From: Vibrio sp. JC009
GTDB taxonomy: Bacteria > Pseudomonadota > Gammaproteobacteria > Enterobacterales > Vibrionaceae
Direction: 5' to 3'
NCBI RefSeq assembly: GCF_029016485.1
Contig: NZ_CP092107.1
Span: forward strand, 1,736,001 to 1,800,000
DNA: 64,000 nucleotides
Part shown: positions 7,906 through 21,337 of the stretch, piece by piece
Numbering within the stretch: the stretch's first letter is position 1
Layout: each line of letters begins with the position of its first letter
The notes under the pieces: generated by a model
The model's input: only the letters and a program-made list of their open reading frames with translations
Database searches by the model: none
Told to the model about the DNA's origin: nothing
Translations under genes and position numbers: made by a program

Positions 7906-9084
7906 TTATGAAAGGAAGTTCATGCAGAAAGTAATAAGTAGCGGGTTAACTAAGTTGATCACTATAACTGTTATCACTGGCAGCATTACCCATGCATTAG
8001 GTGCCGGACCGTATTTTTCGATCACTACCGACATGTTTGCGATTGCATTTGGTGTTTGACCTAGACCAACACCGCAATGACCTGCTGACATTACTGCTGC
8101 TTCGTAGTCTTTGCCCATCATTTTAAAGATAACGAAGTACGCAAAGCTCGCCATGAGAACAAGTTGACCAAGCAAGATGATCATCATTGGAACAGCCAAG
8201 TCGAACAGTTTCCATATCTTCAGGCCCATTAAAGAAAGAGCCAAGAACAGGTTAAGTGCAGAGTTACCAATAAGGTTAATGTGAGGCATTGCAATTTCGT
8301 AGCCTTTTGCATCAGCAACATTACGTACGATTGCTGCCGCGAAAACGCCACCAACGTAGTATGGGAATGTAATGCCAGTTTTATTAAGACCTGCAACCAA
8401 ATACGCACCGAACGCCATCGTAGCTAATACAACAATAACACTTGTCATAGGGGTAACGTTTGTTTTCTTACTGTCTACCTGAATACCACTCGTTGCGGCC
8501 TCATTAGTACCACCAGTTAAGCCGTGTCTTTCGACAAGTTTTTTTGCTACCGGACCACCAACAAGGCTACCCATGATAAGACCAAATGTTGCCGCCGCAA
8601 TACCGATAATAGTAGCCGAGTCCACTCCCAGCTCTTCAAAAGAAGGACCAAATGCAGCCGCAGAGCCCAGCCCACCGGACATTGAAACTGAGCCTATTGC
8701 TACTCCCATTAAAGGGTGCAGACCTAATGCTTGAGCCAGACCAGCGCCCACTGTGTCTTGCAAAATTAAGAGCACAACAGATAGCACCGCTAGAATTGCA
8801 CCTTGCTTACCACTGCTTTTAATAACCTTTACACTCGCCAAGAAACCAGTGCATGTGAAGAAAAGAACCATTAAAAATTTTGTTAGGCCATGATCAAGTT
8901 GAATCGAAAATGTATTTGTTTGGTGACCTATAAGCGTTAGAAGTGCGTAAAGCAGACCACCAATCACAGGTGTTGGAATAAAGTACTTTTGGAGGAAATT
9001 AACTCGTTCTTTTGTCTTCTGCCCGACAAACAGGATGACGGCTGCAAGGCCAATTGTTTGTACTAAATCTAAAGTGATGTTCAT
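7906..9084 (-). CDS. Sodium/glutamate symporter (GltS) family carrier
   Basis: Inner-membrane sodium-coupled carrier of 392 residues with about ten hydrophobic helices. Family marks are IPTPVIGGLLYALLTL near the N terminus and the re-entrant loop motif SMSGGLGSAAAFGP. A second matching loop (GHCGVGLGQTPNAIANM) occurs in the C-terminal half, as expected from the inverted-repeat fold of GltS proteins. True glutamate carriers have SGGHGTGAA in the first loop; the change here suggests a different anion. It sits 40 bases downstream of the RraA-type aldolase on the same strand, so import of the aldolase substrate is the simplest inference. Confidence 0.85.
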   Translation of the reverse strand: MNITLDLVQTIGLAAVILFVGQKTKERVNFLQKYFIPTPVIGGLLYALLTLIGHQTNTFSIQLDHGLTKFLMVLFFTCTGFLASVKVIKSSGKQGAILAVLSVVLLILQDTVGAGLAQALGLHPLMGVAIGSVSMSGGLGSAAAFGPSFEELGVDSATIIGIAAATFGLIMGSLVGGPVAKKLVERHGLTGGTNEAATSGIQVDSKKTNVTPMTSVIVVLATMAFGAYLVAGLNKTGITFPYYVGGVFAAAIVRNVADAKGYEIAMPHINLIGNSALNLFLALSLMGLKIWKLFDLAVPMMIILLGQLVLMASFAYFVIFKMMGKDYEAAVMSAGHCGVGLGQTPNAIANMSVVIEKYGPAPNAWVMLPVITVIVINLVNPLLITFCMNFLS

Positions 9085-9124
9085 AATAAACTCTTTTGTT
9101 ATCTGGATTTAAGTGTTGTATTAA

Positions 9125-9811
9125 CTAGTTACCTGTCTGAATAGAAAATAGCTTATCTTCTAAATTCAGTAGGTTAGCTGTGGTTGCGCCACTTTTTATT
9201 TGTTTTACAAATTCCGTTTCTTTTTCTTCACGCTTTAGACTCAATTCAATGACTTCGTCTAATCGGTGCCTTTTGACTACAACCACCCCGTCGCGGTCTC
9301 CAACAACAATGTCTCCAGAGTTTATTTCTACACCAGAAATATATACTGGAACTTCAACCTTCCCTATTTGGCTCTTCCCAGTGCTTTTAATGCTTAAGCC
9401 CTTTGAGAAGACAGGGAACCCCATATCAATAATTGCAGATGAATCTCGCACTGCGCCATTGATTAAAAGTCCACTTAGTCCCATATGCATCGCCTGAGAG
9501 GTCAATACATCGCCCCATGGCCCGGCTTCTACGAAACCTTTGGCATCAAGCACAAGAATGTCACCTTGATGCGCCCGTAGCATTGCGTAGTGTACCATCA
9601 AGTTATCGGCTGGCCTCATATCAACGGTATATGCTGGTCCAGCAAAGCGCATATCTCCATGCAATGGCTTGATATTGCTATCTAGTGCGCCTGTTGCCCC
9701 CTGAGCTTCGTAGATAGTCGCAGTACCTAATTGCTTTAAGCACTCCATCTTCTCATTGAAGCTACTCTGTAGGGTGTCATGACATAACGAAATATCGTTT
9801 CCACTCATCAT
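9125..9811 (-). CDS. RraA-like / HMG-CHA aldolase family protein
   Basis: Protein of 228 residues of the RraA-like fold. In this family members either act as class II aldolases on 4-hydroxy-4-methyl-2-oxoglutarate and related acids (with oxaloacetate decarboxylase activity) or bind RNase E. The central motif GPWGDVLTSQAMHMGLSG, then LINGAVRDS (metal-site Asp and substrate Arg), and VVGDRDGVVVV are all present, which favours an enzyme. Proximity to a carrier and a divergent LysR regulator also supports catabolism. Tandem ATGs at 9811 and 9808 follow AGGAG, so the start is uncertain by one codon. Confidence 0.85.
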   Translation of the reverse strand: MMSGNDISLCHDTLQSSFNEKMECLKQLGTATIYEAQGATGALDSNIKPLHGDMRFAGPAYTVDMRPADNLMVHYAMLRAHQGDILVLDAKGFVEAGPWGDVLTSQAMHMGLSGLLINGAVRDSSAIIDMGFPVFSKGLSIKSTGKSQIGKVEVPVYISGVEINSGDIVVGDRDGVVVVKRHRLDEVIELSLKREEKETEFVKQIKSGATTANLLNLEDKLFSIQTGN

Positions 9812-9898
9812 TTTTCTCCTATCTATATAACTGGAGTAATTATTAAGTTATATTTAAATGAACACAAACATCGTTTTTTGAACTTAAGATAAGAAATA

Positions 9899-10789
9899 AT
9901 GAATCTAAAACAGATAAGATACTTTTGTGAGATTGTTAGAGTAGGGAGCGCGGCACAAGCGGCAAAAAATTTATACGTCGCACCGACGGCAATCAGCATG
10001 CAGATTTCTCAATTGGAAAGCGAACTTGGTGGACAACTATTCGATCGTACTACGCGTCCGATGGAGCTTACTGAGTTAGGCAAGTTCTTCTATCCACGCG
10101 CAACAGATATTCTTGCCAACACAAATCAATTAGAGCGAGAAGCAAAAAAAATCGTATCTGGTCAACATGGTTGGCTAGGCCTTGGCTTCGTCCGTTCTGC
10201 GCTATTTTCCTTCATGCCATCGGCAATAAGAGCATTCAGGAAAGAATACCCTGAAGTTCAGCTCGATCTTGTTGAAGAGCTTTCCGACTATCAGCCAGAT
10301 AGCATTAGAAGTGGCAAGTTTCATGTAGGCATATCCAGATTTATTGGAAGTCCTGTGGTGCCAGAAGGATTCACCTACAAAGAGATAATGCAGGATTCGT
10401 TTGTTGCGGCGGTTCCGGTAAACCATCCCTTAGCGAGTAGAGCATCACTGAACCTAAGTGAATTGTGTCATGAGGATTTTATTGCTTACCCCAAAGATCC
10501 ACTGAGCGTATTTAGTGGGCAGTTACTGTCGTTGTTCCGGGAAAATGATCTTGAACCTCAAATAGCTTATGAGGCCGTAGAAATAAACACCGCAATAGCT
10601 TTAGTCTCTGCTGGTTTAGGCTGCACGTTAGTTGGGGAGTCAATATCGAGCTACCAGAGTAATGATGTAGTGTTTATTCCAGTTGATGATCTTAAGACAA
10701 AAAGCGTTGTGGGAGCGATTTTTCTAGCTGACGAAAAAAACTTACTTGTAGATAAATTTCTTGACTGTTTGAGTTTAGAGCACGAATAA
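9899..10789 (+). CDS. LysR-family transcriptional regulator
   Basis: LysR regulator of 296 residues. The N-terminal winged HTH reads GSAAQAAKNLYVAPTAISMQISQLE, and the C-terminal periplasmic-binding-like effector domain spans about residues 90-290. It is divergent from the aldolase-carrier pair with 87 bases between the starts, the usual arrangement for a LysR activator of the divergent operon. The inducer is unknown; an organic acid handled by the aldolase is the natural guess. Confidence 0.88.
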   Translation: MNLKQIRYFCEIVRVGSAAQAAKNLYVAPTAISMQISQLESELGGQLFDRTTRPMELTELGKFFYPRATDILANTNQLEREAKKIVSGQHGWLGLGFVRSALFSFMPSAIRAFRKEYPEVQLDLVEELSDYQPDSIRSGKFHVGISRFIGSPVVPEGFTYKEIMQDSFVAAVPVNHPLASRASLNLSELCHEDFIAYPKDPLSVFSGQLLSLFRENDLEPQIAYEAVEINTAIALVSAGLGCTLVGESISSYQSNDVVFIPVDDLKTKSVVGAIFLADEKNLLVDKFLDCLSLEHE

Positions 10790-11040: not shown

Positions 11041-12252
11041 CTACTGTAATAGATTTCGAATCACAATCGCTGTACCCATTCCCCCGCCAATACATAGTGA
11101 AGCTAAACCATATTCAAGTTGGCGTTTTGACATCTCATAGATCAAGGTGGTCAGAATGCGCCCTCCAGATGCGCCAAGCGGATGACCTAGCGCAATTGCA
11201 CCGCCATTAACATTGGTTTTATCGTCAAACCACGTCATAGGTAGTTGGTACTTGTCACTCAATACATGCATCACACCAAGCGCTTGCGCGGCAAATGCCT
11301 CATTTAATTCTAGTAGCTGCATATCAGCTAGTGTCATCTGAGCGCGGTCAAGTGCTTGTTTTATCGCCGGAACAGGACCTAATCCCATATATGCAGGGTC
11401 AAGGCCACCCTGACCATAACTGACAATTTCAGCGAGTGGTTCAAGCTGATGAGTTGCCACTGCGTCAGCTGATGCCAAAATAAATGCCACACCACCATCA
11501 TTGATGCCAGAGGCATTACCGGCAGTTACGCTGCCTTCTTTTTTAAAGGCTGGCTTAAGTTTGGCTAAAGTCTCTAATGATGCATCATGCCTAGGATATT
11601 CATCTTGAGCAAAGCTCACTTTCTGACGGCGTTGCAGTACTTCAATTGGAACAATTTCATCGGTGAACTTACCTTGATTGATCGCAGCAACCGCGCGCTG
11701 CTGACTGCGCAATGCAAACGTATCTTGAGTTTGGCGATCAATTTGATATTTTTCCGCAACGTTTTCAGCAGTCATCCCCATGTGGTACTGGTTAAACGCA
11801 TCGGTTAACCCGTCATTAATCATGGTATCCACCAGTTGTTGGTGGCCCATTTTGCAGCCAAATCGGTTTTTTGCATCCAAAACATAAGGTGCACTCGACA
11901 TGTTTTCCATGCCAGCGGCAACAATAAGATCAGCATCACCCGCTTTGATTTTACTTGCTGCTTCCATGACCGTTTTCATACCACTACCACAAATCATGTT
12001 AAGCGTAAAAGCGGGAACGGAATCAGGTACCCCGGCAAGTTTGGCTGCTTGGCGGCCTGGTCCCATGCCTTGCCCTGCACTCAGTACGTTACCGACAATC
12101 ACTTCATCAAGTAAAGCGGGATCAATGTTGGCCTGCGCTAAAGCTGCATTAATCACATACCCTCCCAGTTCAGCCGCGGGTATAGAAGCGAGGCTGCCAC
12201 CAAAACTGCCGAGCGCAGTACGCTTAGCTGCAACGATATAGGTTTTTCTCAT
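11041..12252 (-). CDS. Acetyl-CoA C-acetyltransferase (thiolase)
   Basis: Biosynthetic-type thiolase of 403 residues that condenses two acetyl-CoA to acetoacetyl-CoA, or the reverse. The nucleophile Cys88 is in NMICGSGMKT, the catalytic His in ALGHPLGASGGR, and the second Cys in SLCIGGGMGTA. Length and motifs match PhaA/AtoB proteins. It follows the SDR reductase by 15 bases in a two-gene operon. With the reductase, the PhaJ-type hydratase, the FabV-type reductase and the CoA-transferase across the divergent promoter it completes a C2-to-C4 route. No polyhydroxyalkanoate synthase or phasin lies nearby, so storage polymer synthesis is not indicated. Confidence 0.93.
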   Translation of the reverse strand: MRKTYIVAAKRTALGSFGGSLASIPAAELGGYVINAALAQANIDPALLDEVIVGNVLSAGQGMGPGRQAAKLAGVPDSVPAFTLNMICGSGMKTVMEAASKIKAGDADLIVAAGMENMSSAPYVLDAKNRFGCKMGHQQLVDTMINDGLTDAFNQYHMGMTAENVAEKYQIDRQTQDTFALRSQQRAVAAINQGKFTDEIVPIEVLQRRQKVSFAQDEYPRHDASLETLAKLKPAFKKEGSVTAGNASGINDGGVAFILASADAVATHQLEPLAEIVSYGQGGLDPAYMGLGPVPAIKQALDRAQMTLADMQLLELNEAFAAQALGVMHVLSDKYQLPMTWFDDKTNVNGGAIALGHPLGASGGRILTTLIYEMSKRQLEYGLASLCIGGGMGTAIVIRNLLQ

Positions 12253-12267
12253 CTTACTGCCTCCCTC

Positions 12268-13002
12268 TTAAATGACTAATCCGCCGTCGATTTTAAGTGT
12301 CTGTCCTGTGATAAAGCTGGAATTGTCACTGGCTAAGAATACAACACCATTAGTAATGTCTTCTGGCTTACCCATACGACCTAATGGTGTTTTTGATTTC
12401 ATGTAGTTGAGGACTTTTTCAGGTAAGTCGACGGTCATCGGAGTCTCGATAAAGCCAGGGGCTACGCAATTAGCACGCACTTGCGCCCCTTTACGTGAAA
12501 ACTCTTTTGCCCATCCTTTTGTCATTGAAATTACACCACCTTTCGTGGCGCCATAGTTACTTTGCCCAACATTGCCATCGGTACCAACCACTGAGGACAT
12601 CGTAATGATTGAGCCGACACCATTTTCGATCATCAGAGGTGCAACCGCTTGTGTCATATTAAACACCCCTTTTAAATTTACATTGATCACTAGATCCCAG
12701 TCATCTTCGCTCATTCGGTCAAGTAGATTGTCACGGGTGATGCCCGCATTATTTACCAGTACATCCACTTTGTTATGCCGTGTTTGTATCTCTTCAATTA
12801 GACTGCGAATCGCAGTTCGATCACAGACATTTAACTGTGTCACCCGGACATTCGAGTACTGTGTTTCAAGCTCTTTAGCTACTTCTGTGTTCAGGTCACA
12901 TGCATAGACCATAGCTGCATTTTGTTTAGCAAATGTTTCGACGATACAGCGACCAATACCTTGGGCGCCTCCAGTTACGATACAGATTTTATTAGTAAGC
13001 AT
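12268..13002 (-). CDS. Acetoacetyl-CoA / 3-oxoacyl reductase (SDR, PhaB/FabG-like)
   Basis: Short-chain dehydrogenase of 244 residues. The nucleotide loop GGAQGIG is at residues 11-17, then NNAGITRDN, the catalytic Ser in MSSVVG, and Tyr/Lys in SNYGATKGG. The C terminus ITGQTLKIDGGL is typical of FabG/PhaB enzymes. By family these use NADPH and give the (R)-3-hydroxyacyl product, which fits the (R)-specific PhaJ-type hydratase in the same locus. It is the first gene of the thiolase operon, read away from the LysR gene. A candidate operator lies about 120 bases upstream. Confidence 0.88.
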   Translation of the reverse strand: MLTNKICIVTGGAQGIGRCIVETFAKQNAAMVYACDLNTEVAKELETQYSNVRVTQLNVCDRTAIRSLIEEIQTRHNKVDVLVNNAGITRDNLLDRMSEDDWDLVINVNLKGVFNMTQAVAPLMIENGVGSIITMSSVVGTDGNVGQSNYGATKGGVISMTKGWAKEFSRKGAQVRANCVAPGFIETPMTVDLPEKVLNYMKSKTPLGRMGKPEDITNGVVFLASDNSSFITGQTLKIDGGLVI

Positions 13003-13303
13003 AGTTTCACCTTATTTAGAAAGGATGCGAGGCTATGTCTTTGCATAGTGTTCTCGCAATAGATGGAATTATTTTATGAAGTGATTGTGCTTTTGTTTAC
13101 TGATTCCAAATCAAAACACTATTGCAAATAAGGGATAATAAAGTATTGAATATATCGACGGACTTTGATTCGTCATGTTGTCTAACGGTAATAAATAAGA
13201 ATCTATGACTTATATTGCTAAACTAGACTAAAACTATTTCTTCTTATTCATTAGTAAGCTATAAGGTTATTGTCCTGTAAATGCAATAGTTAGGGTCTGC
13301 ACT
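13003..13303. promoter_or_regulatory. Divergent control region between the reductase-thiolase operon and its LysR gene
   Basis: A 301-base AT-rich gap with no credible gene. It contains the repeated 19-bp motif at 13121-13139 (listed separately). Divergent promoters for the reductase operon and the LysR gene are expected here; no -35/-10 pair was convincing enough to place. Confidence 0.5.
13121..13141 (+). promoter_or_regulatory. Candidate LysR operator, copy 1
   Basis: ATTGCAAATAAGGGATAAT followed by AA. The same pattern recurs at 14271-14289 (inverted) and 17835-17855. With the flanking bases it has a loose dyad of the TTATT-N13-AATAA type, compatible with a LysR-type site, about 120 bases before the reductase start. 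Confidence 0.55.
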
Positions 13304-14212
13304 ATGCTCGATAAAATCGTTTATTTTCTTCATGTGGTACGTTCCGGTTCATTTAGCCTGGCGGCTAAACAGTATGGCATTTCTGCTTCGGCGGGTAGTC
13401 GCTGGATCATTGAGCTTGAAGAAAGTTTAGGGGTTAGTTTGCTCAAACGTTCAACGCGAAAAGTAGTGCCGACTCAGGCCGGTGTACGTTTATACGAGCG
13501 TTTTAACCGCATTAACGGTGAGATTGATGAAATCTTCACAGAGATACAGAATCTGGGTAACGATGACCGCGGTATAATCCGCATAGCTTCAACCCCACTT
13601 TTTGCTCGCGATTTTCTTGGTGCTATAGTAGGTGAGTATTTACAACAATACCCTAATGTTACTTTCCGTATCTTAGAAACAGCTCTCGATATGGACCATA
13701 TTGATGAGATCGACTTCGCGATACGAGCCAGTGCGAATTACCTGGGTTTTCAAGAGAAAGATAGCCTTTTGGTCAAGCGGTCGCTCTTAAAATACCCGCT
13801 CATGGCTTGTTGTTCGCCACAATACATCGAAAGATATGGCAAGCCGGATCAGCCTGAAGATTTACGTAGCCATAATTGTTTGTACGCATCTACCCTTGTC
13901 GGAGGAAGCAAATGGGTCTTTGAACGGGACGGTGAGATAACTACGGTCAATATCGCTCAAACAGTAGAAGTGGAAAATAGTCAATTTATCAAAACGGTAG
14001 CTCTCAATGGTGGTGGAGTAGGCTACCTGCCGGTGCACTTGATCGAAGGTGAACTCAAAGATGGTTCATTGGTACCTATTCTGAGTGAATACACCAATAG
14101 CGAATTTGAATTTAGCCTCTATTATCGCCCAAGGAAACAGATGCCGGCTCGTTGTGTCAACTTTAAGGACTATCTAATTAAACGTGTTCGAGAAATTTCT
14201 GAGGCAGAATAA
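13304..14212 (+). CDS. LysR-family regulator of the C4 acyl-CoA cluster
   Basis: LysR regulator of 302 residues. The N-terminal HTH reads GSFSLAAKQYGISASAGSRWIIELE. The effector domain ends in FEFSLYYRPRKQMPARCVNF, similar to the CrgA/AaeR branch of LysR proteins. It sits between the divergent reductase-thiolase operon and the CoA-transferase operon. All three surrounding transcription units carry the same upstream motif, so this protein is the likely common regulator. The link is an inference. Confidence 0.88.
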   Translation: MLDKIVYFLHVVRSGSFSLAAKQYGISASAGSRWIIELEESLGVSLLKRSTRKVVPTQAGVRLYERFNRINGEIDEIFTEIQNLGNDDRGIIRIASTPLFARDFLGAIVGEYLQQYPNVTFRILETALDMDHIDEIDFAIRASANYLGFQEKDSLLVKRSLLKYPLMACCSPQYIERYGKPDQPEDLRSHNCLYASTLVGGSKWVFERDGEITTVNIAQTVEVENSQFIKTVALNGGGVGYLPVHLIEGELKDGSLVPILSEYTNSEFEFSLYYRPRKQMPARCVNFKDYLIKRVREISEAE

Positions 14213-14220
14213 ACAGCAAA

Positions 14221-14256
14221 AAGAAGAGTGGTTCACGTTGCTCTTCTTATTTTTTC
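14221..14256 (+). terminator. Rho-independent terminator after the LysR gene
   Basis: AAGAAGAG and CTCTTCTT arms separated by 12 bases, followed by ATTTTTT. It begins nine bases after the LysR stop codon. Confidence 0.85.
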
Positions 14257-14270
14257 AGCTTCATATATAG

Positions 14271-14289
14271 ATTATCCCTTATACGCAAT
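14271..14289 (-). promoter_or_regulatory. Candidate LysR operator, copy 2
   Basis: On the minus strand ATTGCGTATAAGGGATAAT, differing from copy 1 at two positions. It lies about 112 bases before the CoA-transferase start, just after the LysR terminator, so it belongs to the CoA-transferase promoter. Confidence 0.55.
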
Positions 14290-14401
14290 TATCTTTCCTT
14301 TTATTGTCTATTTTTTCATTAATCATAAGCCAATACACTTTTTCTATCAGCTACACAGCATGTGTTCTAAGCATTAATACTTTCCACAAGGAAAACTGAT
14401 A

Positions 14402-16006
14402 ATGAAAATAAAAGTGTTAACAACGCTACAAGCTTCAAACTTAATTAATGATGGTGACAGGGTTATTCTTGGCGGTTTTATCGGTGCAGTTGTCCCTGAA
14501 GCAATAGAAAAAGTTATTGGTGAGCGTTACTTGAATACAGGTCATCCGAAAAATCTGGAGCTGTATTTTACCGCAGGTCAAGGCAACGGTCTCGATAAGG
14601 CGGTCAATCACCTATCTTACCCAGGAATGGTCAGTTTGGCTTGTGGTGGTCATTGGGGACTAATTCCAAGGCTACAAAAGTTAGCTAATGAAAATAAGAT
14701 CCAAGGTTACAACTTCCCGCAAGGCGTCATCGCTCAATTGCTACGAGATTCAGCAGCCGGTAAGCCTGGTACTCTATCGCATGTTGGCTTGGGCACATTT
14801 GTTGATCCTCGATTTGGTGGTGGCAAAATTAATGAAGTGACTACTGATGAAAGGGTCTCCGTTATGAATATCAATGGTGAGGAGTTTTTATTTTTTAAGC
14901 GTCTCAACCCTAATGTTGCACTACTACGTGGTACTACAGCAGACGAAAACGGCAATATTACGATGGAAGACGAGTGCTTGTTTCTTGAAAACCTTGCAGC
15001 AGCGCAATTAGTGTCAAACCTTGGCGGCACAGTGATCGTGCAAGTAAAGCAGATGGTGAAGACTGGAACCCTTGACCCACAACAAGTACGTATTCCTGGC
15101 ATTTTTGTTGACGCTGTTGTTATTGCAGAACCAGAAGAGCACATGCAAACCTTTGCTGAAACTATGAACCCGGCTTATTGCGGTCGTGGTGAATTAACTG
15201 AAACTTCAGCATCAGTTCGTCCTCTGGATGCAAAAAAAATCATCGCCCGCCGCGCTGCAATGGAGCTTAAACGAGGTGCTATTCTCAACTATGGAATAGG
15301 TGCTCCTGAGGTAATTGCTGAAGTTACCGATGAAGAAGGAATTACTGATCAAATGATCGCTACTGTCGAACCAGGGGCGATCGGAGGGACACCTGCAGGC
15401 GGCTTAAGCTTCGGTGCATCGGCATTTCCTGAAGCGGTAATAACTCAAGATCAGATGTTTGATTTCTATGATGGTGGTGGCATTGATCAAGCCTTTTTGG
15501 GCTTAGCGGAATGTGACCAGTCCGGCAACTTAAACGTCTCCAAATTTGGTAGCAAAATCGCAGGCTGTGGTGGCTTTATCAACATCACCCAAAATGCCAA
15601 GCAAGTGTTTTTCTGCGGTACTTTCACTGCTGGGAAACTGGAAATTAAAACTGGTAATGGCGAACTAAAAATTGTTAAAGATGGACATATTCAAAAGCTT
15701 ATCAACCAGGTTCAGCAAATTACTTTCGCAGCAGATATTGCTAGACGCAATAAAAAGCCAGTGCTTTATATCACTGAACGTGCAGTATTCAAACTAGGTA
15801 AAAAAACGCTTGAGCTTATTGAAATTGCGCCAGGCGTTGACCTTGAAAAAGATATTCTAAATCAAATGGAATTTAAGCCTGTCATTAGCTCTGAACTTAA
15901 GTTAATGGACAAACGAATTTTTTGTCACCAACCAATGGGATTGATGCTCACGTCAATACAAAAAAGTGAGCAAAGCCAAGTCAACCCCGAGAATGTAGCC
16001 GCTTAA
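14402..16006 (+). CDS. Acetate/propionate (acyl-CoA:acetate) CoA-transferase
   Basis: Fused-subunit CoA-transferase of 534 residues of the YdiF/Pct type, moving CoA between short acyl-CoAs and acetate. The N-terminal half has GGFIGAVVPEAIE and the C-terminal half carries the catalytic Glu near residue 323 in VEPGAIGGTPAGG, then SFGASAFPEAV. Followed by the PhaJ-type and FabV-type genes, it could release butyrate from butyryl-CoA using acetate, or activate a short acid for entry in the other direction. AAGGA lies ten bases before the ATG. Candidate operator copy 2 lies upstream. Confidence 0.9.
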   Translation: MKIKVLTTLQASNLINDGDRVILGGFIGAVVPEAIEKVIGERYLNTGHPKNLELYFTAGQGNGLDKAVNHLSYPGMVSLACGGHWGLIPRLQKLANENKIQGYNFPQGVIAQLLRDSAAGKPGTLSHVGLGTFVDPRFGGGKINEVTTDERVSVMNINGEEFLFFKRLNPNVALLRGTTADENGNITMEDECLFLENLAAAQLVSNLGGTVIVQVKQMVKTGTLDPQQVRIPGIFVDAVVIAEPEEHMQTFAETMNPAYCGRGELTETSASVRPLDAKKIIARRAAMELKRGAILNYGIGAPEVIAEVTDEEGITDQMIATVEPGAIGGTPAGGLSFGASAFPEAVITQDQMFDFYDGGGIDQAFLGLAECDQSGNLNVSKFGSKIAGCGGFINITQNAKQVFFCGTFTAGKLEIKTGNGELKIVKDGHIQKLINQVQQITFAADIARRNKKPVLYITERAVFKLGKKTLELIEIAPGVDLEKDILNQMEFKPVISSELKLMDKRIFCHQPMGLMLTSIQKSEQSQVNPENVAA

Positions 16007-16040
16007 ACCGAGTCTCCCTCTCACTAAAAGGGAGATAGTC

Positions 16041-16070
16041 TTGCGATAAAAATCGATGTTTTTATCGCAA
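16041..16070. other. Perfect intercistronic hairpin between the CoA-transferase and hydratase genes
   Basis: A 12-base arm TTGCGATAAAAA pairs exactly with TTTTTATCGCAA around a 6-base loop. A second weaker stem (CTCCCT / AGGGAG) lies just before it at about 16014-16034. The 89-base gap separates genes that otherwise appear to form one operon. The stem could set 3' stability of the upstream message or attenuate the downstream genes. Confidence 0.6.
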
Positions 16071-16095
16071 AACTCTTTCTAAGAGAAACACCATT

Positions 16096-16512
16096 ATGAG
16101 TTATTCCATTGACCAGCTTGAGCTGGGACAAAGTGCGTACTTTGAAAAGACTATTAGCGAATCAGATATTCAGATGTTTTGTGGCATCAGCGGTGATATT
16201 AACCCGGTTCATGTTAGCCAAATTGCGGGAAAGAAGAGTATTTTCGGCAATCGTGTAGCACACGGGATTATGGTTTCCGGCTTAACTTCCGCTGTTCTCG
16301 GTATGCAACTTCCTGGGCCGGGGACTATTTATTTAGGTCAAGAGCTGAAGTTTACGGCACCAGTTTACATTGGTGACACCATTCGCGCCGAAGTGGTTGT
16401 TGCTGAAATTATTCGCGACAAAAATATCGTTAAACTCGCAACACGCAGCATTAATCAAAATAGCAAAATCGTTATTGAGGGCATGGCAACGGTTATGCCA
16501 CCAAAGCAATAA
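16096..16512 (+). CDS. (R)-specific enoyl-CoA hydratase (MaoC-like, PhaJ type)
   Basis: Single hot-dog-fold hydratase of 138 residues interconverting (R)-3-hydroxyacyl-CoA and trans-2-enoyl-CoA. The MaoC hydratase motif is intact, with Asp34 and His39 in DINPVHV matching the catalytic pair of PhaJ enzymes, followed by RVAHGIMVSG. The short length fits C4-C6 specific PhaJ proteins. In this operon it would dehydrate the (R)-3-hydroxybutyryl-CoA made by the reductase to crotonyl-CoA for the FabV-type enzyme 18 bases downstream. Confidence 0.9.
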   Translation: MSYSIDQLELGQSAYFEKTISESDIQMFCGISGDINPVHVSQIAGKKSIFGNRVAHGIMVSGLTSAVLGMQLPGPGTIYLGQELKFTAPVYIGDTIRAEVVVAEIIRDKNIVKLATRSINQNSKIVIEGMATVMPPKQ

Positions 16513-16530
16513 AATATTTAAGGATCTACC

Positions 16531-17727
16531 ATGATTATTAAACCTATCATCCAAGGTGTGGTTGCCCGTTCTGCACATCCTATGGGCTGTCAACAATCAG
16601 TACTTAACCAAATAGAGTATGTAAAAAAAGCATCGCAAATATCTCAAGGGCCGAAGAAGGTGCTAGTGCTTGGTGCGTCTTCTGGTTTTGGGTTAGCCTC
16701 TCGTATTAGTTTAGCCTTCGGTGGCGCCGAGTCGGATACTATTGGCGTGTCTTTCGAACGCGGACCAAGCGAAAAAGGCATTGGAACCGCTGGTTGGTAC
16801 AATAATATCTATTTCCGTCAAGAAGCAGAAAAAGAAGGACTCATTGCTAAAAACTTTGTCGGTGATGCTTTCTCGGCAGATATGCGAGAAAAAGTTATTG
16901 ACTACATAAAGCATGAGTTTGGAGGGAAAGTTGACTTGGTAGTCTACAGTCTGGCAACTGGCGTCAGACCAAACCCAAACACAGGGGAGCTATGGCGTTC
17001 AGCAATTAAAACTTCAGGAGAGCCAATTGTTGGGGCAACCATCAACATAGAGAAAGACTGCCTAGAGTCTATGGAAGTAGGTACAGCCACACCAGAAGAG
17101 ATGGATGCGACAGTAAAAGTGATGGGTGGTGAAGACTGGCAAAGCTGGATAGACATGTTGAGCAATTCTGATGTTCTTGCCCATGGTTGCAAGACGATTG
17201 CCTATTCGTATGTTGGCCCAGAAATTACGTACCCAATTTATCACAAGGGTACCCTTGGCAAGGCGAAGGCACATTTACACTGCACCGCGGATGAACTAAA
17301 TAAAACGCTTAGTGAACTTGGGGGAGAGGCATATGTTTCTGTATGTAAAGCCCTGGTGACTAAAGCAAGTGTATTTATCCCTGCATTCTCTCCTTACATT
17401 CTTTCTTTGTTTAAGGTAATGAAGGAAAAAGGAACACATGAAGGCTGTATAGAACAAATGCAGCGTTTATTCTCCCAGTGCTTGTACGTAAATCAAGTAC
17501 CAGTAGATGAAGCTCGCCTAATTCGAATTGATGACCGAGAACTCGAAGCAGAAACACAGCAACAGGTAAAAAAACTAATGAGTCAAATGACTGCTGAGAA
17601 CTTTCGTCAGATTGGTGACTACAGTGGCTATAAATTAGACTTCATGCGACTCAATGGGTTTGACTTTTCTGAAGTTGATTACGATGCCTCAATTGATATG
17701 AATGAACTGGCACTATTACAGCCTTAA
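16531..17727 (+). CDS. trans-2-enoyl-CoA / enoyl-ACP reductase (FabV/Ter family)
   Basis: NAD(P)H-dependent enoyl reductase of 398 residues. The family start IIKPIIQGVVARSAHP, the nucleotide loop GASSGFGLASR, and the active-site Tyr-X8-Lys region (ITYPIYHKGTLGKAK) are all present. FabV acts in fatty acid synthesis and its Ter relatives reduce crotonyl-CoA to butyryl-CoA essentially irreversibly. Context (thiolase, acetoacetyl-CoA reductase, (R)-hydratase, CoA-transferase; no fatty acid genes) favours the Ter role and sets the direction of the pathway toward a saturated C4 product. Vibrio normally has a separate housekeeping fabV, so this is probably a second, dedicated copy. Confidence 0.9.
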   Translation: MIIKPIIQGVVARSAHPMGCQQSVLNQIEYVKKASQISQGPKKVLVLGASSGFGLASRISLAFGGAESDTIGVSFERGPSEKGIGTAGWYNNIYFRQEAEKEGLIAKNFVGDAFSADMREKVIDYIKHEFGGKVDLVVYSLATGVRPNPNTGELWRSAIKTSGEPIVGATINIEKDCLESMEVGTATPEEMDATVKVMGGEDWQSWIDMLSNSDVLAHGCKTIAYSYVGPEITYPIYHKGTLGKAKAHLHCTADELNKTLSELGGEAYVSVCKALVTKASVFIPAFSPYILSLFKVMKEKGTHEGCIEQMQRLFSQCLYVNQVPVDEARLIRIDDRELEAETQQQVKKLMSQMTAENFRQIGDYSGYKLDFMRLNGFDFSEVDYDASIDMNELALLQP

Positions 17728-17757
17728 GCAGTATATTCCTTCCAGAATAAAAATCCC

Positions 17758-17785
17758 CCACCAATATGTGTGGTGGTATTTTATT
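17758..17785 (+). terminator. Terminator after the enoyl reductase gene
   Basis: CCACCA and TGGTGG arms around a 7-base loop followed by TATTTTATT. It ends the CoA-transferase operon, so the MFS gene has its own promoter. Confidence 0.7.
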
Positions 17786-17834
17786 GAATAATAAGGTTAA
17801 TTTATTTTTCTGGCTCAAGTTCACACAATTCATT

Positions 17835-17855
17835 ATTGCAAATTAAGGATAATAA
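17835..17855 (+). promoter_or_regulatory. Candidate LysR operator, copy 3
   Basis: ATTGCAAATTAAGGATAAT followed by AA, two changes from copy 1, 68 bases upstream of the MFS start. TTATT on its left and AATAA on its right form the best dyad of the three copies. Confidence 0.55.
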
Positions 17856-17922
17856 GGCGCTGTTATTAGAGTATTATGATTCATAGAAAATAAAACTAAT
17901 ATCACCCTATAAGGTACACATT

Positions 17923-19122
17923 ATGAACAAGAAACATCTTATCGAGATTACGATATTCCTCACCTATGCATTGTTTGCCATGTCTTGGGTAGCGGGTTCA
18001 ATGATGACAAAAGACATCATGTCCTACTACAACATTGATGGCATGGCAGCCGCTACCTGGATGACTAACGCAATTACCATAGCCAAGATTATTGGTAATT
18101 TGGCTGCAGCTTGGCTATTAATAAAAATGGGACCGAAGAAGGCTTTTTTAATCGCCTCGGTGTTAATTGTAGCTGGTGCGATTGGTGCATTCGCTTCAAA
18201 TTATCCACTTTACGTTTTTTCACGATTAGTAATGGGGTTTGGTGGAGCATTTGCGATCGTTTACTTCAACCCGATAGTTATTAATTATTTCTCAGCTGAA
18301 GAACGTCCATTAATTAATGGTATCAATGCTGCCGCATTTAACATGGGTAACCTGTTGGCACTATTATTCACCGGTTCTCTGCTTTCTAGTCTCGGAAGCT
18401 GGCAAAATGTAATTTTGGCTATTTCTGCAATCAGCTTAGCTATCTTAGTTGTTTGGTGGCTGATTAGTGATGACTTCTCGCTATCAAGCTCCTCAGATAA
18501 CAAAGAGCAAGCAGAATACACTTTAAAAGATGGCATGAAAGAGTCGGTAAATTGGTGGTTACCAATTGCTTATTCTGGTCTGCTTTTCTGCTACATTTCT
18601 GTTTTTGTACTATTCCCGTTAGTACCTACATTTGCTGCTGAAGCGAAATATCTTTCTTCAATTATGATAGGAGCAGGAATGGTAGGAACCGTCGTAGGTA
18701 TTATTGTAGCGAAGCGCTATTCTTTGCGCGTACCTGTTATCCGCTACTGTGGTTTAGCAATGACAGCGTTTGCTGCATTGATGATTACTACAGGGAATGC
18801 AACTATTGCTTACGCGGCAGCATTCATGGCGGGTTTCTTTATGTTTGTGCCAATGACGTCATTAGTAACCCTTCCTCAAGAACTACCAAACATGACGCCA
18901 GGTCGTATTACCGTTATCTTCGGTATGTTTTGGTCCATTTCTTATATGATAGAAACAGTGCTCATGTACTTGGCTGGTGTGCTCGCGGATACGACAGGCA
19001 ACATTGCGTATGCAGCGACGTTTGCGGTGATTTGTTCATCAACATTTTTCCTTGCAAGCTTCTTTTTGCCTGAAACAGGTAAGAAACCTGAACTCATCAA
19101 TGCTACAGCAAAAAGTGCTTAA
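17923..19122 (+). CDS. Major facilitator superfamily transporter
   Basis: Inner-membrane MFS carrier of 399 residues with about twelve helices in two halves joined by a polar loop near residues 185-205. The loop after helix 2 (MGPKKAFLIASV) is the usual MFS signature position, and FSRLVMGFGGAFAI follows. Substrate cannot be read. Position downstream of a shared operator motif suggests export or import of the short-chain acid handled by the cluster. The esterase start lies nine bases after the stop, so the two formed an operon before the IS insertion. Confidence 0.88.
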   Translation: MNKKHLIEITIFLTYALFAMSWVAGSMMTKDIMSYYNIDGMAAATWMTNAITIAKIIGNLAAAWLLIKMGPKKAFLIASVLIVAGAIGAFASNYPLYVFSRLVMGFGGAFAIVYFNPIVINYFSAEERPLINGINAAAFNMGNLLALLFTGSLLSSLGSWQNVILAISAISLAILVVWWLISDDFSLSSSSDNKEQAEYTLKDGMKESVNWWLPIAYSGLLFCYISVFVLFPLVPTFAAEAKYLSSIMIGAGMVGTVVGIIVAKRYSLRVPVIRYCGLAMTAFAALMITTGNATIAYAAAFMAGFFMFVPMTSLVTLPQELPNMTPGRITVIFGMFWSISYMIETVLMYLAGVLADTTGNIAYAATFAVICSSTFFLASFFLPETGKKPELINATAKSA

Positions 19123-19249
19123 GGAGGCCATATGCGTCAAATTAGTTCTAAGTTAGAAGCTTGGTTAGCAGACTTTAATGTCCTGGTTGATCCGCACCAA
19201 CAGTTTTGGACACTGAGTTAAGTGAGTACAATCACTAACGAGGTGAACC

Positions 19250-19534
19250 ATGACAAACAAAAAGAAACGTATTTTCCATTCTCCTGAATTTAAAGCTGAA
19301 GCTCTGAAGTTGGCAGAGAAAGTAGGAGTTGCTGCGGCAGCAAGACAACTCGGGCTACATGAATCACAGATCTATGGTTGGCGTAAAGCAGCCAAAAAAG
19401 ATACCACTACAACGCAACGGGAAAAGGATCTGGCTACTGAGGTCGCAAAGCTTAAGAGGCAATTGGCAGAGCAAGCTGAGGAGCTAGAGATCGTAAAAAA
19501 GGCCGCCACCTACTTCGCGAAGAATCAAAAGTAG
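19250..19534 (+). CDS. IS3-family transposase OrfA
   Basis: DNA-binding subunit of 94 residues. The helix-turn-helix region (FHSPEFKAEALKLAEKVGVAAAARQLGLHESQIYGW) is typical of HTH_Tnp_1 proteins, followed by a leucine-zipper-like coiled coil (VAKLKRQLAEQAEELEIVKK). A -1 frameshift near its end would join it to OrfB. GAGGTG precedes the ATG. Confidence 0.92.
   Translation: MTNKKKRIFHSPEFKAEALKLAEKVGVAAAARQLGLHESQIYGWRKAAKKDTTTTQREKDLATEVAKLKRQLAEQAEELEIVKKAATYFAKNQK
19495..19501 (+). other. Slippery heptamer for -1 programmed frameshifting
   Basis: A_AAA_AAG in the orfA frame, eleven codons before the orfA stop. A -1 slip enters the frame that is open through to orfB and would make the OrfAB transposase, as known for IS3 elements. 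Confidence 0.75.
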
Positions 19535-19548
19535 ATTGCTATGAATTT

Positions 19549-20400
19549 ATGCTCGAACACCTACTGTATTTCAGTGTCGTCCGTATGGCTAAGGTGTTCG
19601 GAGTATCTCGAAGTGGGTTTTATTACTGGGTTGAGCATCGCCACAAGGCCATTCAGCGCGAAGATAGCCGTAAGGTGCTCGATACCAAGGTCAAAGAGGC
19701 TTTTGACAGCAGTAAAGGCCGTGATGGCGCGAGACGTATCCAAAAAGAACTGGCAGAGAACGGTGATAGTCGCAACGTCAAAACCATTGCCGCCAGTATG
19801 AAACGTCAGGATTTGACCCCAAAAGCTGCACGCAAGTTTAAGTGTACAACGGACAGCAAGCATAAAATGCCTGTTGCTCCGAACCTGTTGGCTCAAGATT
19901 TTAACGCAACGGCTCCGAACCAAAAGTGGGCTGGCGATATTACCTATCTTGCCACTAGCGAAGGCTGGTTATATTTGGCGGTCATTATTGATCTTTACTC
20001 TCGTCAGGTGATCGGCTGGTCTATGGATACAAGAATGACGGCAACTCTGGTCTGCGATGCACTATCGATGGCTCTGTTCCGTCGAGGATTTCCTGAGCAG
20101 GTTATTGTTCATAGTGATCGAGGTAGCCAGTACTGTTCAAAAGACTATCGAGATCTCATAACTGCTTATAATCTAAAACAAAGTATGAGTAGAAAAGGAA
20201 ATTGCTGGGATAACGCTTGTGTTGAGAGCTTCTTCCATTCAATGAAAGTTGAAGCGATCCAATATGAGCCTATCATGACGAGAGGCGAGATGCGCCAAAC
20301 GATCTTTGAGTATATAGAGGTTGATTATAATCGGACAAGAAGGCACAGTGCTCTTGGGTATCTGAGCCCAGTTAACTTTGAAAATCAAAATGTCGCTTAA
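19549..20400 (+). CDS. IS3-family transposase OrfB (DDE integrase domain)
   Basis: Catalytic domain of 283 residues. After an HTH_21 segment (VSRSGFYYW) comes the rve integrase core with the DDE triad: Asp in WAGDITY, Asp in HSDRGSQY, and Glu in NACVESFF with the usual Lys seven residues later. The C terminus YNRTRRHSALGYLSPVNFE is the family ending. It probably acts as the OrfAB fusion. The gene looks intact, so the element may be active. Confidence 0.92.
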   Translation: MLEHLLYFSVVRMAKVFGVSRSGFYYWVEHRHKAIQREDSRKVLDTKVKEAFDSSKGRDGARRIQKELAENGDSRNVKTIAASMKRQDLTPKAARKFKCTTDSKHKMPVAPNLLAQDFNATAPNQKWAGDITYLATSEGWLYLAVIIDLYSRQVIGWSMDTRMTATLVCDALSMALFRRGFPEQVIVHSDRGSQYCSKDYRDLITAYNLKQSMSRKGNCWDNACVESFFHSMKVEAIQYEPIMTRGEMRQTIFEYIEVDYNRTRRHSALGYLSPVNFENQNVA

Positions 20401-21337
20401 TGAAGTGTCCAGTCTGGCTGGAGCAGATCAGGTTACCCAGCTAGTAGAAAATGGCTTTAAAGCAAATGCGACCAACGCTCGCGAGGGTTTGGCAAATCTA
20501 ACTAAAGGTTTGGTTACAGATATCCCTGAGGTGGCATCTATTCAAGATGATGTGGTTATCGGAGGTGAATATGCAGTACCTGTGCGTATCTATAATCCTG
20601 AGCCAACCAAAGCACTACCAGTATTGGTTTATTATCATGGTGGTGGCCATATGGCTGGCAGCGTAACGGTTTATGACCCGATTTGTCGTAAGCTTGCATT
20701 AGCCACCAATCATATTGTAGTGGCTGCGGAATATCGTCTCGCTCCAGAGTGTCCGTACCCTGCAGGTATTAATGATGCTTACTCAGTGGTTCAACATATT
20801 TGGACTGTACTTGATGAAAGGAAAGTCAATTATCTGCCTAAGCTTTCGATTGCAGGTGATTCTGGTGGCGGAGCACTAGTAGCAACCGTTAGCGCAAGAG
20901 CACAGTTCGACGATGTGGTCTCAATTGAAAAGCAGGTGATGATTTACCCAAGCCTCGATTACACAATGGACAGTGCTTCGATGGAAGAGAATGCGACTGG
21001 CTATTTACTGCAAAAAGGAAAGATTGCATGGTACTTCGACAACTACTTCCAAAATGGAGAAGATCGTAAGCAAGCTTCACCACTGTACCAACCAATGACA
21101 GCACAGTTACCTGAAACTCTCTTGTTTACCGCAGAGTTCTGTCCGTTAAGAGACGAAGGTATCGCGTACTGTGAAATGGCCCAGGCCGCTGGCGCAAGCG
21201 TCGAGCACTATCACTTCAACGACATGATCCACACCTTCGTTAACATGGAAGATCTTGTTAAAGAAGAGTGTCAACTGACCTATCAAAAAATCAGCGAGTT
21301 TTTAAACCGCTAGATCTTTCTGTATGGTGCCCAAACT

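Follow-up and report, generated by a model that had tools for sequence, protein, structure and literature searches.

A stretch of 64,000 nucleotides from the 5.2-Mb genome of Vibrio sp. JC009 (contig NZ_CP092107.1, positions 1,736,001 to 1,800,000; the window, hereinafter) contains a compact eight-gene cluster at 11041..21313, which quite probably ferments (R)-3-hydroxybutyrate, the monomer of polyhydroxybutyrate (PHB), to acetate and butyrate through a dismutation. The cluster is organized as two divergent arms flanking a gene for a LysR-type regulator: the minus-strand arm codes for a thiolase and a short-chain dehydrogenase/reductase (SDR), and the plus-strand arm for a CoA-transferase, a MaoC hydratase, a Ter/FabV reductase, a major facilitator superfamily (MFS) carrier and an esterase. 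An earlier note on this DNA had placed the thiolase, reductase, hydratase, FabV/Ter, CoA-transferase, LysR and MFS genes together, with which the gene calls and the Pfam and NCBIfam models agree, and had read them as a route from acetyl-CoA to butyrate. Its view of an (R)-pathway, flavin-independent enzyme set with butyrate as the likely product is borne out by our analysis. The direction from acetyl-CoA is probably wrong, for in relatives these genes are accompanied by those for a PHB depolymerase, an outer-membrane channel and additional hydrolases.

Genes for CoA activation (the CoA-transferase), an oxidative arm (the SDR and thiolase) and a reductive arm (MaoC and Ter) are all present, and the divergent layout would correspond to these two arms. 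Such gene content and order are direct observations; the activities, substrates and direction set out here are what we infer from them. The YdiF-type CoA-transferase would activate 3-hydroxybutyrate with CoA from acetyl-CoA or butyryl-CoA. In the left arm, one half of the activated substrate would be converted via acetoacetyl-CoA to two acetyl-CoA, with the formation of NADH; in the right arm, the other half would be dehydrated and reduced to butyryl-CoA at the expense of this NADH, whereupon the CoA-transferase would finally release butyrate. The enzymes would be (R)-specific because PHB monomers have the (R) configuration. The Ter family runs toward reduction, from which the earlier note had argued that use of a C4 acid was the less likely direction; this argument loses its force under dismutation, since reducing one 3-hydroxybutyryl-CoA would consume the NADH from oxidizing another. 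The net reaction, 2 3-hydroxybutyrate -> butyrate + 2 acetate + H+, would be redox-neutral and, by our own balance, would yield about one ATP via Pta-AckA; a passage in a published account gives -59.34 kJ for 2 3-hydroxybutyrate -> 2 acetate + butyrate + H+ (PMC10096456).

The reductase (16531..17727, plus strand) is assigned to the Ter clade of trans-2-enoyl-CoA reductases by structure match and phylogeny. Its closest solved structure is that of Clostridium acetobutylicum CA_C0462 (4eue, named Ter; 419 bits) versus 389 bits for FabV of Vibrio fischeri (5xi0), and the genome holds a second, separate FabV copy that scores 803 bits to 5xi0. In a tree of 86 sequences rooted on FabV, 80 of them picked by similarity to the window protein, the window's reductase groups with CA_C0462 (node support 0.976) and the second copy with V. 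fischeri FabV, in keeping with the Ter-like character earlier suggested for it. The protein retains Y237-x8-K246 and passes the NCBIfam FabV equivalog (514.6 versus a cut-off of 400), a model that may not exclude Ter enzymes; a role as the housekeeping FabV was rejected in view of the separate FabV in the genome. We predict from these comparisons that it converts crotonyl-CoA to butyryl-CoA. A comparison of crotonyl-CoA with crotonyl-ACP would be weak evidence alone, because true FabV enzymes also reduce crotonyl-CoA, according to a passage of PMC3198815.

The FabG-like SDR (12268..13002, minus strand; Pfam adh_short_C2) had been called PhaB-type, which is too strong: it scores 194.4 against the cut-off of 436 of the NCBIfam PhaB equivalog, and the assignment to PhaB was rejected. 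Its second β-strand ends in an Asp (VYACD; the strand was placed by eye in an alignment of 23 sequences that includes one plainly different SDR, from L018). As an Asp at this position favors NAD(H) in SDRs, the enzyme would match the NADH-using Ter. The closest solved structures, 4nbu and 4nbt, are reportedly NADH-dependent, and the protein is predicted to be an NAD(H)-linked (R)-3-hydroxybutyryl-CoA dehydrogenase. The neighboring thiolase (11041..12252, minus strand; Pfam Thiolase_N/C) is of the acetyl-CoA C-acetyltransferase type (NCBIfam TIGR01930, 472.6 versus a cut-off of 240.55), has the motifs NMICGSGMK and CIGGGMG, identical across 18 of 18 aligned relatives, and is predicted to split acetoacetyl-CoA. 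On the other side of the LysR gene (13304..14212, plus strand; HTH_1 and LysR_substrate), which is present in most cluster-bearing relatives, lies the CoA-transferase gene (14402..16006, plus strand; Pfam CoA_trans). Its product is closest among solved structures to YdiF (2ahu, 474 bits), fails the NCBIfam FadX equivalog NF052271 (403.9 versus a cut-off of 750), and shares the VEPGA motif with all 26 aligned relatives; transfer of CoA from acetyl-CoA or butyryl-CoA to 3-hydroxybutyrate is its predicted activity. The MaoC/PhaJ-like protein (16096..16512, plus strand; Pfam MaoC_dehydratas) has among its three closest solved structures two, 5cpg and 1iq6, that are named (R)-specific enoyl-CoA hydratase; the motif [S/T]GDxNPxH occurs in 17 of 17 aligned relatives, and the Asp-x4-His pair, catalytic in the MaoC family, is found in the window protein and in the same 17. 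The MFS transporter (17923..19122, plus strand; Pfam MFS_1), with 94% identity to an MFS protein of V. fluminensis, is predicted to import 3-hydroxybutyrate or its oligomers. Among the cluster genes there is no Bcd, EtfAB, Hbd or crotonase, the search for Bcd and EtfAB having covered the cluster only. Polymer synthesis was rejected, as the whole genome has no match to PhaC_N (PF07167), which upholds the earlier remark that a PHA synthase is lacking.

The eight-gene set is not a chance assembly, because ten of the 80 best among 577 confirmed Ter-relative loci join a CoA-transferase to ter, and in five of these ten the whole set of eight is present, its order and orientation unchanged and no match to an insertion sequence (IS) protein intervening. 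The gene set described in the earlier note is hence found in full elsewhere, namely in V. thalassae, V. renipiscarius, Enterovibrio and two Pseudovibrio. The loci of Shewanella marina and S. canadensis lack the MFS gene only, and three further loci (L006, L009 and L018) are partial clusters with the CoA-transferase. The remainder of the best 80 comprises four loci with ter and esterase only and 66 without other cluster genes, two of which show one weak match each (in L012 it is to the SDR, in L063 to the LysR on the left). In a sample of 296 Vibrionaceae genomes taken from a larger group, a match to the CoA-transferase reaches E 1e-100 or better in 58, with 73-100% identity in 12 of these; ter adjoins the close CoA-transferase in ten of the 12, the others being G021 and G172, in the latter of which the CoA-transferase contains an internal stop. 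A more distant CoA-transferase clade was examined in ten places, with ter in none of them; the LysR, CoA-transferase and SDR genes occur together in six, three of which also have the thiolase. One such Vibrio locus (L119:2614-12604) combines the CoA-transferase with Pfam-confirmed TRAP transporter parts, LysR, SDR and thiolase, again without ter, as well as an MctS-like sensor kinase scoring below the cut-off of that model, and is likely an oxidative short-chain hydroxy-acid locus. Separately, many Vibrio and Aeromonas loci (L021-L077) carry a different Ter-clade relative, 53-63% identical to the window's, without the cluster; by eye, in three Vibrio loci it lies near ABC transporter open reading frames (ORFs), with a lysophospholipase-like ORF in two. 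In Photobacterium lipolyticum (L012:2044-9816), a ter relative follows ORFs for an acyl-ACP synthase, a dehydratase and a reductase, in an arrangement that looks aryl polyene-like by eye.

The link to PHB emerges from the genes that accompany the cluster in Shewanella. Among 129 Shewanella genomes, the CoA-transferase, a PhaZ7-type depolymerase and the channel are each found in six, and these are the same six, with depolymerase and channel lying within about 15 kb. The channel further occurs in six of the 296 Vibrionaceae, all of which carry the cluster; in five it lies next to the cluster, and in one at another place. If the genes were independent, the chance of the three-gene overlap in Shewanella would be 1.8e-10 and that of the channel and cluster overlap in Vibrionaceae 1.0e-9, figures that treat related genomes as independent draws, which they are not, and that therefore overstate the case. 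In two of the six Shewanella (L167, L168), the depolymerase, channel and hydrolases are sandwiched between lysR and coaT, and in the other four they are at one or the other end of the cluster; with positions differing in this way, the linkage has outlived rearrangement, which argues that the co-location is kept. The S. marina depolymerase is a clear relative of PhaZ7 (4bvk; E 4.6e-85, aligned over residues 10-287), and a signal-peptide-like N-terminus (by eye) and the AHSLG box are kept in five of the six, suggesting that the enzyme is likely secreted. Beyond its esterase, S. marina has the depolymerase, the channel-like protein and two α/β hydrolases, one with a lipoprotein-like signal; the same genes adjoin the S. 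canadensis cluster. Four of the six Shewanella have ackA-pta between ter and the esterase, which fits the need for an ATP-yielding acetate branch, and the MFS gene is not at the locus in four of six. Because the depolymerase, channel and two further hydrolases share the locus, the island in these Shewanella would lead all the way from polymer to butyrate.

Family scans give no Pfam match for the channel, and its relatives are annotated in their source records as "porin", "DUF1302" or "alginate export domain". Its predicted model is a β-barrel (mean pLDDT 79.4), for which AlgE, chitoporin and MOMP are the top matches among solved structures, at moderate TM-scores (0.6); modeling thus supports its identity as an outer-membrane channel. 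In V. renipiscarius, Enterovibrio and V. sinensis, a member of this family is encoded after the esterase. As for intracellular depolymerases, the NCBIfam model i_nPHAscl picks out a V. thalassae hydrolase encoded away from the cluster (311.7 versus a cut-off of 300) and, just under the cut-off at 297, one beside the cluster in a second genome, the next score among the 296 being 82.7; both near-full-length relatives sit in genomes with cluster and channel. The NF050089 search at E 0.001 matched all 296 genomes because the model matches any α/β hydrolase, and only the two scores near 300 bits were used. What is probably Vibrio sp. VB16 (G251) encodes the channel a second time (L148:9127-19322), beside ORFs that on inspection by eye suggest an enoate reductase, an enoyl-CoA hydratase, a thiolase, FadB and another CoA-transferase, and this is perhaps a second short-chain acid fermentation locus.

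The esterase gene is split in the window. It starts with an ATG at 19132, directly 3' of the MFS stop and with a ribosome-binding-site-like AGGAGG ahead, and its 5' piece (19132..19187, plus strand), which reads MRQISSKLEAWLADFNVL, resembles the N-terminus of intact relatives (MRQ..SKL..WL..FN) up to the break at 19187. A 1,243-bp IS3-family element (19188..20430, plus strand) intervenes, after which the esterase resumes at 20431 with a repeated GGT, the target duplication lying at 19185-19187 and 20431-20433. The membership in this family follows from two transposase ORFs (19250-19534 and 19549-20400), terminal inverted repeats and the short target duplication; the similar inverted ends, taken from the sequence, are TGATCCGCACCA and TGATCTGCTCCA. 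ISVpa2-like copies occur on Vibrio plasmids, at up to 88% among the matches listed, several of which span exactly these end bases. The 3' remainder (20431..21313, plus strand; Pfam Abhydrolase_3) has the HGGG, GDSGGG, CPLRDEG and MIHTF motifs. The esterase reported earlier is therefore present, as an HSL-type enzyme, but not as a whole gene: the TTG-started ORF then listed (20378-21313) is the remainder fused to the end of the element, its start codon and first residues being IS sequence, and the transposase ORFs, which fall inside the range 11041..21313, were absent from that description. Compared with V. fluminensis and a second relative, strong purifying selection acts on the seven intact genes and on what remains of the esterase, with dN/dS of 0.02-0.06 where dS is computable (several dS exceed 1) and otherwise pN/pS of 0.05-0.12; the esterase remainder has a dN/dS of about 0.04 versus two intact relatives. 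Among the 80 best relatives, the ten loci that have the CoA-transferase give no IS-protein match. The insertion and the co-occurrence of the genes are likewise direct observations. Since the rest of the cluster is intact and, together with the esterase remainder, strongly conserved by selection, the insertion looks recent.

The same genes would equally catalyze the conversion of acetyl-CoA to butyrate, which counts against dismutation, and a fermentation wherein acetyl-CoA from sugars undergoes condensation and reduction and is released as butyrate, disposing of NADH, is a rival reading. All of the enzymes for it are present, the Ter family has the right direction, the CoA-transferase can release butyrate with acetate, and ackA-pta is linked in four of six Shewanella; yet it leaves unexplained the cluster-joined PHB depolymerase, channel and hydrolases, the pairing of a carrier with an esterase, and the related CoA-transferase loci that are without ter (0/10), one of them with a TRAP uptake system. 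We regard it as unlikely. Those distant Vibrio loci, with the SDR and partly the thiolase, instead suggest an oxidative use of 3-hydroxybutyrate, or perhaps 3-hydroxyvalerate or crotonate, in which the CoA-transferase, SDR and thiolase would lead to acetyl-CoA, with MaoC and Ter widening the substrate range or feeding C4 units elsewhere. However, MaoC and Ter stand mid-operon in all five complete sets and in five Shewanella regions (L165-L169), and the ackA-pta genes in four of six Shewanella point to fermentation, making this very improbable for the cluster at hand. A decaying relic is about as poorly placed an explanation for the window's copy: it would account for the IS insertion in the esterase and for the partner genes not found in this genome, but sits badly with seven other genes that are intact and, together with the esterase remainder, conserved by strong selection.

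Several further observations weigh against dismutation of a PHB-derived substrate, particularly in the window's own genome, which has no PhaZ7 relative, no channel, no match to Esterase_PHB (PF10503) and nothing above 77 bits for i_nPHAscl; channel remnants to the right of the split esterase were looked for in the window and none was found. A depolymerase at the locus, as expected of a PHB degradation locus, is seen in all six cluster-carrying Shewanella but was not found in the window's genome. PhaZ7-type enzymes are likewise found in none of the 12 Vibrionaceae with the close CoA-transferase, the two weak partial relatives (36%) among the 296 being in genomes without the cluster, and the Vibrio carriers have no PF10503 depolymerase, with one fragment under the cut-off in G126. 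As the carriers lack PhaZ7, the PHB link in Vibrio is drawn from the channel, the i_nPHAscl relatives in two genomes and homology with Shewanella. Incomplete relatives also occur: within the stretches examined, L006 is without thiolase, SDR and LysR, L009 without MaoC, thiolase and SDR, L114 without MaoC, Ter and thiolase, and L115 without MaoC and Ter. In the S. marina copy, the CoA-transferase and LysR genes are fragmented and the depolymerase ORF is missing its N-terminus, which are perhaps draft errors, and in two of the six Shewanella the locus is without ackA-pta. Our confidence in the substrate is accordingly higher for the cluster family than for the window's copy. With neither depolymerase nor channel found and with a split esterase, dismutation in the window's genome probably starts from the free monomer. 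It is an evenly balanced proposition that the family represents a mobile, self-contained PHB-to-butyrate island of facultative marine Shewanella and Vibrio, with the window as a monomer-only derivative; in such an island, a secreted depolymerase would feed a dedicated outer-membrane channel and the carrier, and (R)-only, flavin-free dismutation would yield butyrate, acetate and ATP.

Elsewhere in the window, the left side of the cluster (7906-10789) is occupied by a GltS-type symporter, an RraA-like protein and a LysR gene, as identified by their Pfam families; these neighbors have no match beside the cluster in the ten CoA-transferase-bearing relative loci. To the right lies a nitrogenase region (33121-54119), in which nifH, D, K, E, N, X, draG, nifU, S, V, modABC and nifB are recognizable by eye.

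PHB is widespread as a storage polymer of bacteria and is also a commercial bioplastic, and we know of no PHB fermentation genes from marine facultative bacteria. Among the open-access papers seen, a body of literature from which most subscription journals are missing, no description of this gene set for 3-hydroxybutyrate fermentation turned up. With the island genetically defined in Shewanella and Vibrio that can be cultured, PHB fermentation would become directly testable; the island would also provide a marker for it in metagenomes and supply a natural butyrate route without Bcd-Etf. The classical butyrate cluster, Thl-Hbd-Crt-Bcd-EtfAB, shares with the window's cluster acetoacetyl-CoA, C4-CoA intermediates and butyrate as the end product, whereas the cluster described here has (R)- rather than (S)-intermediates and no flavin-based bifurcation. 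A Ter-clade reductase is also common to Ter-based butyryl-CoA formation (C. acetobutylicum CA_C0462 and Treponema denticola TDE_0597), but here it belongs to a natural operon with the CoA-transferase, (R)-hydratase and SDR, linked in relatives to a PHB depolymerase.

The fermentation of 3-hydroxybutyrate or PHB by Ilyobacter polytropus and I. delafieldii was reportedly described by Stieb and Schink in 1984, Janssen and Harfoot in 1990 and Janssen and Schink in 1993. According to passages of its genome paper, I. polytropus ferments 3-hydroxybutyrate to acetate and butyrate, and polymer metabolism appears, with reference to a 1978 study, to be confined to aerobic communities (PMC3035301); I. delafieldii ferments PHB, going by a title cited in PMC10096456. 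The likeness to our cluster, in a comparison of reactions, is that the cluster is predicted to turn 2 3-hydroxybutyrate into butyrate, 2 acetate and H+ on balance; the difference is that I. polytropus, as the same passages have it, is a strict anaerobe of the Fusobacteriaceae that uses the monomer only (PMC3035301). With PhaZ7 of Paucimonas lemoignei the connection is through the depolymerase, of which the S. marina protein is a clear relative, but the Shewanella relatives share their locus with genes predicted to ferment 3-hydroxybutyrate. PhaZ7 relatives from S. sediminis and S. halifaxensis are already listed, with no experimental data in the part concerned, in PMC7830162. The physiology is known, and what appears to be new is an island joining PhaZ7 relatives to an (R)-only, Ter-based fermentation.

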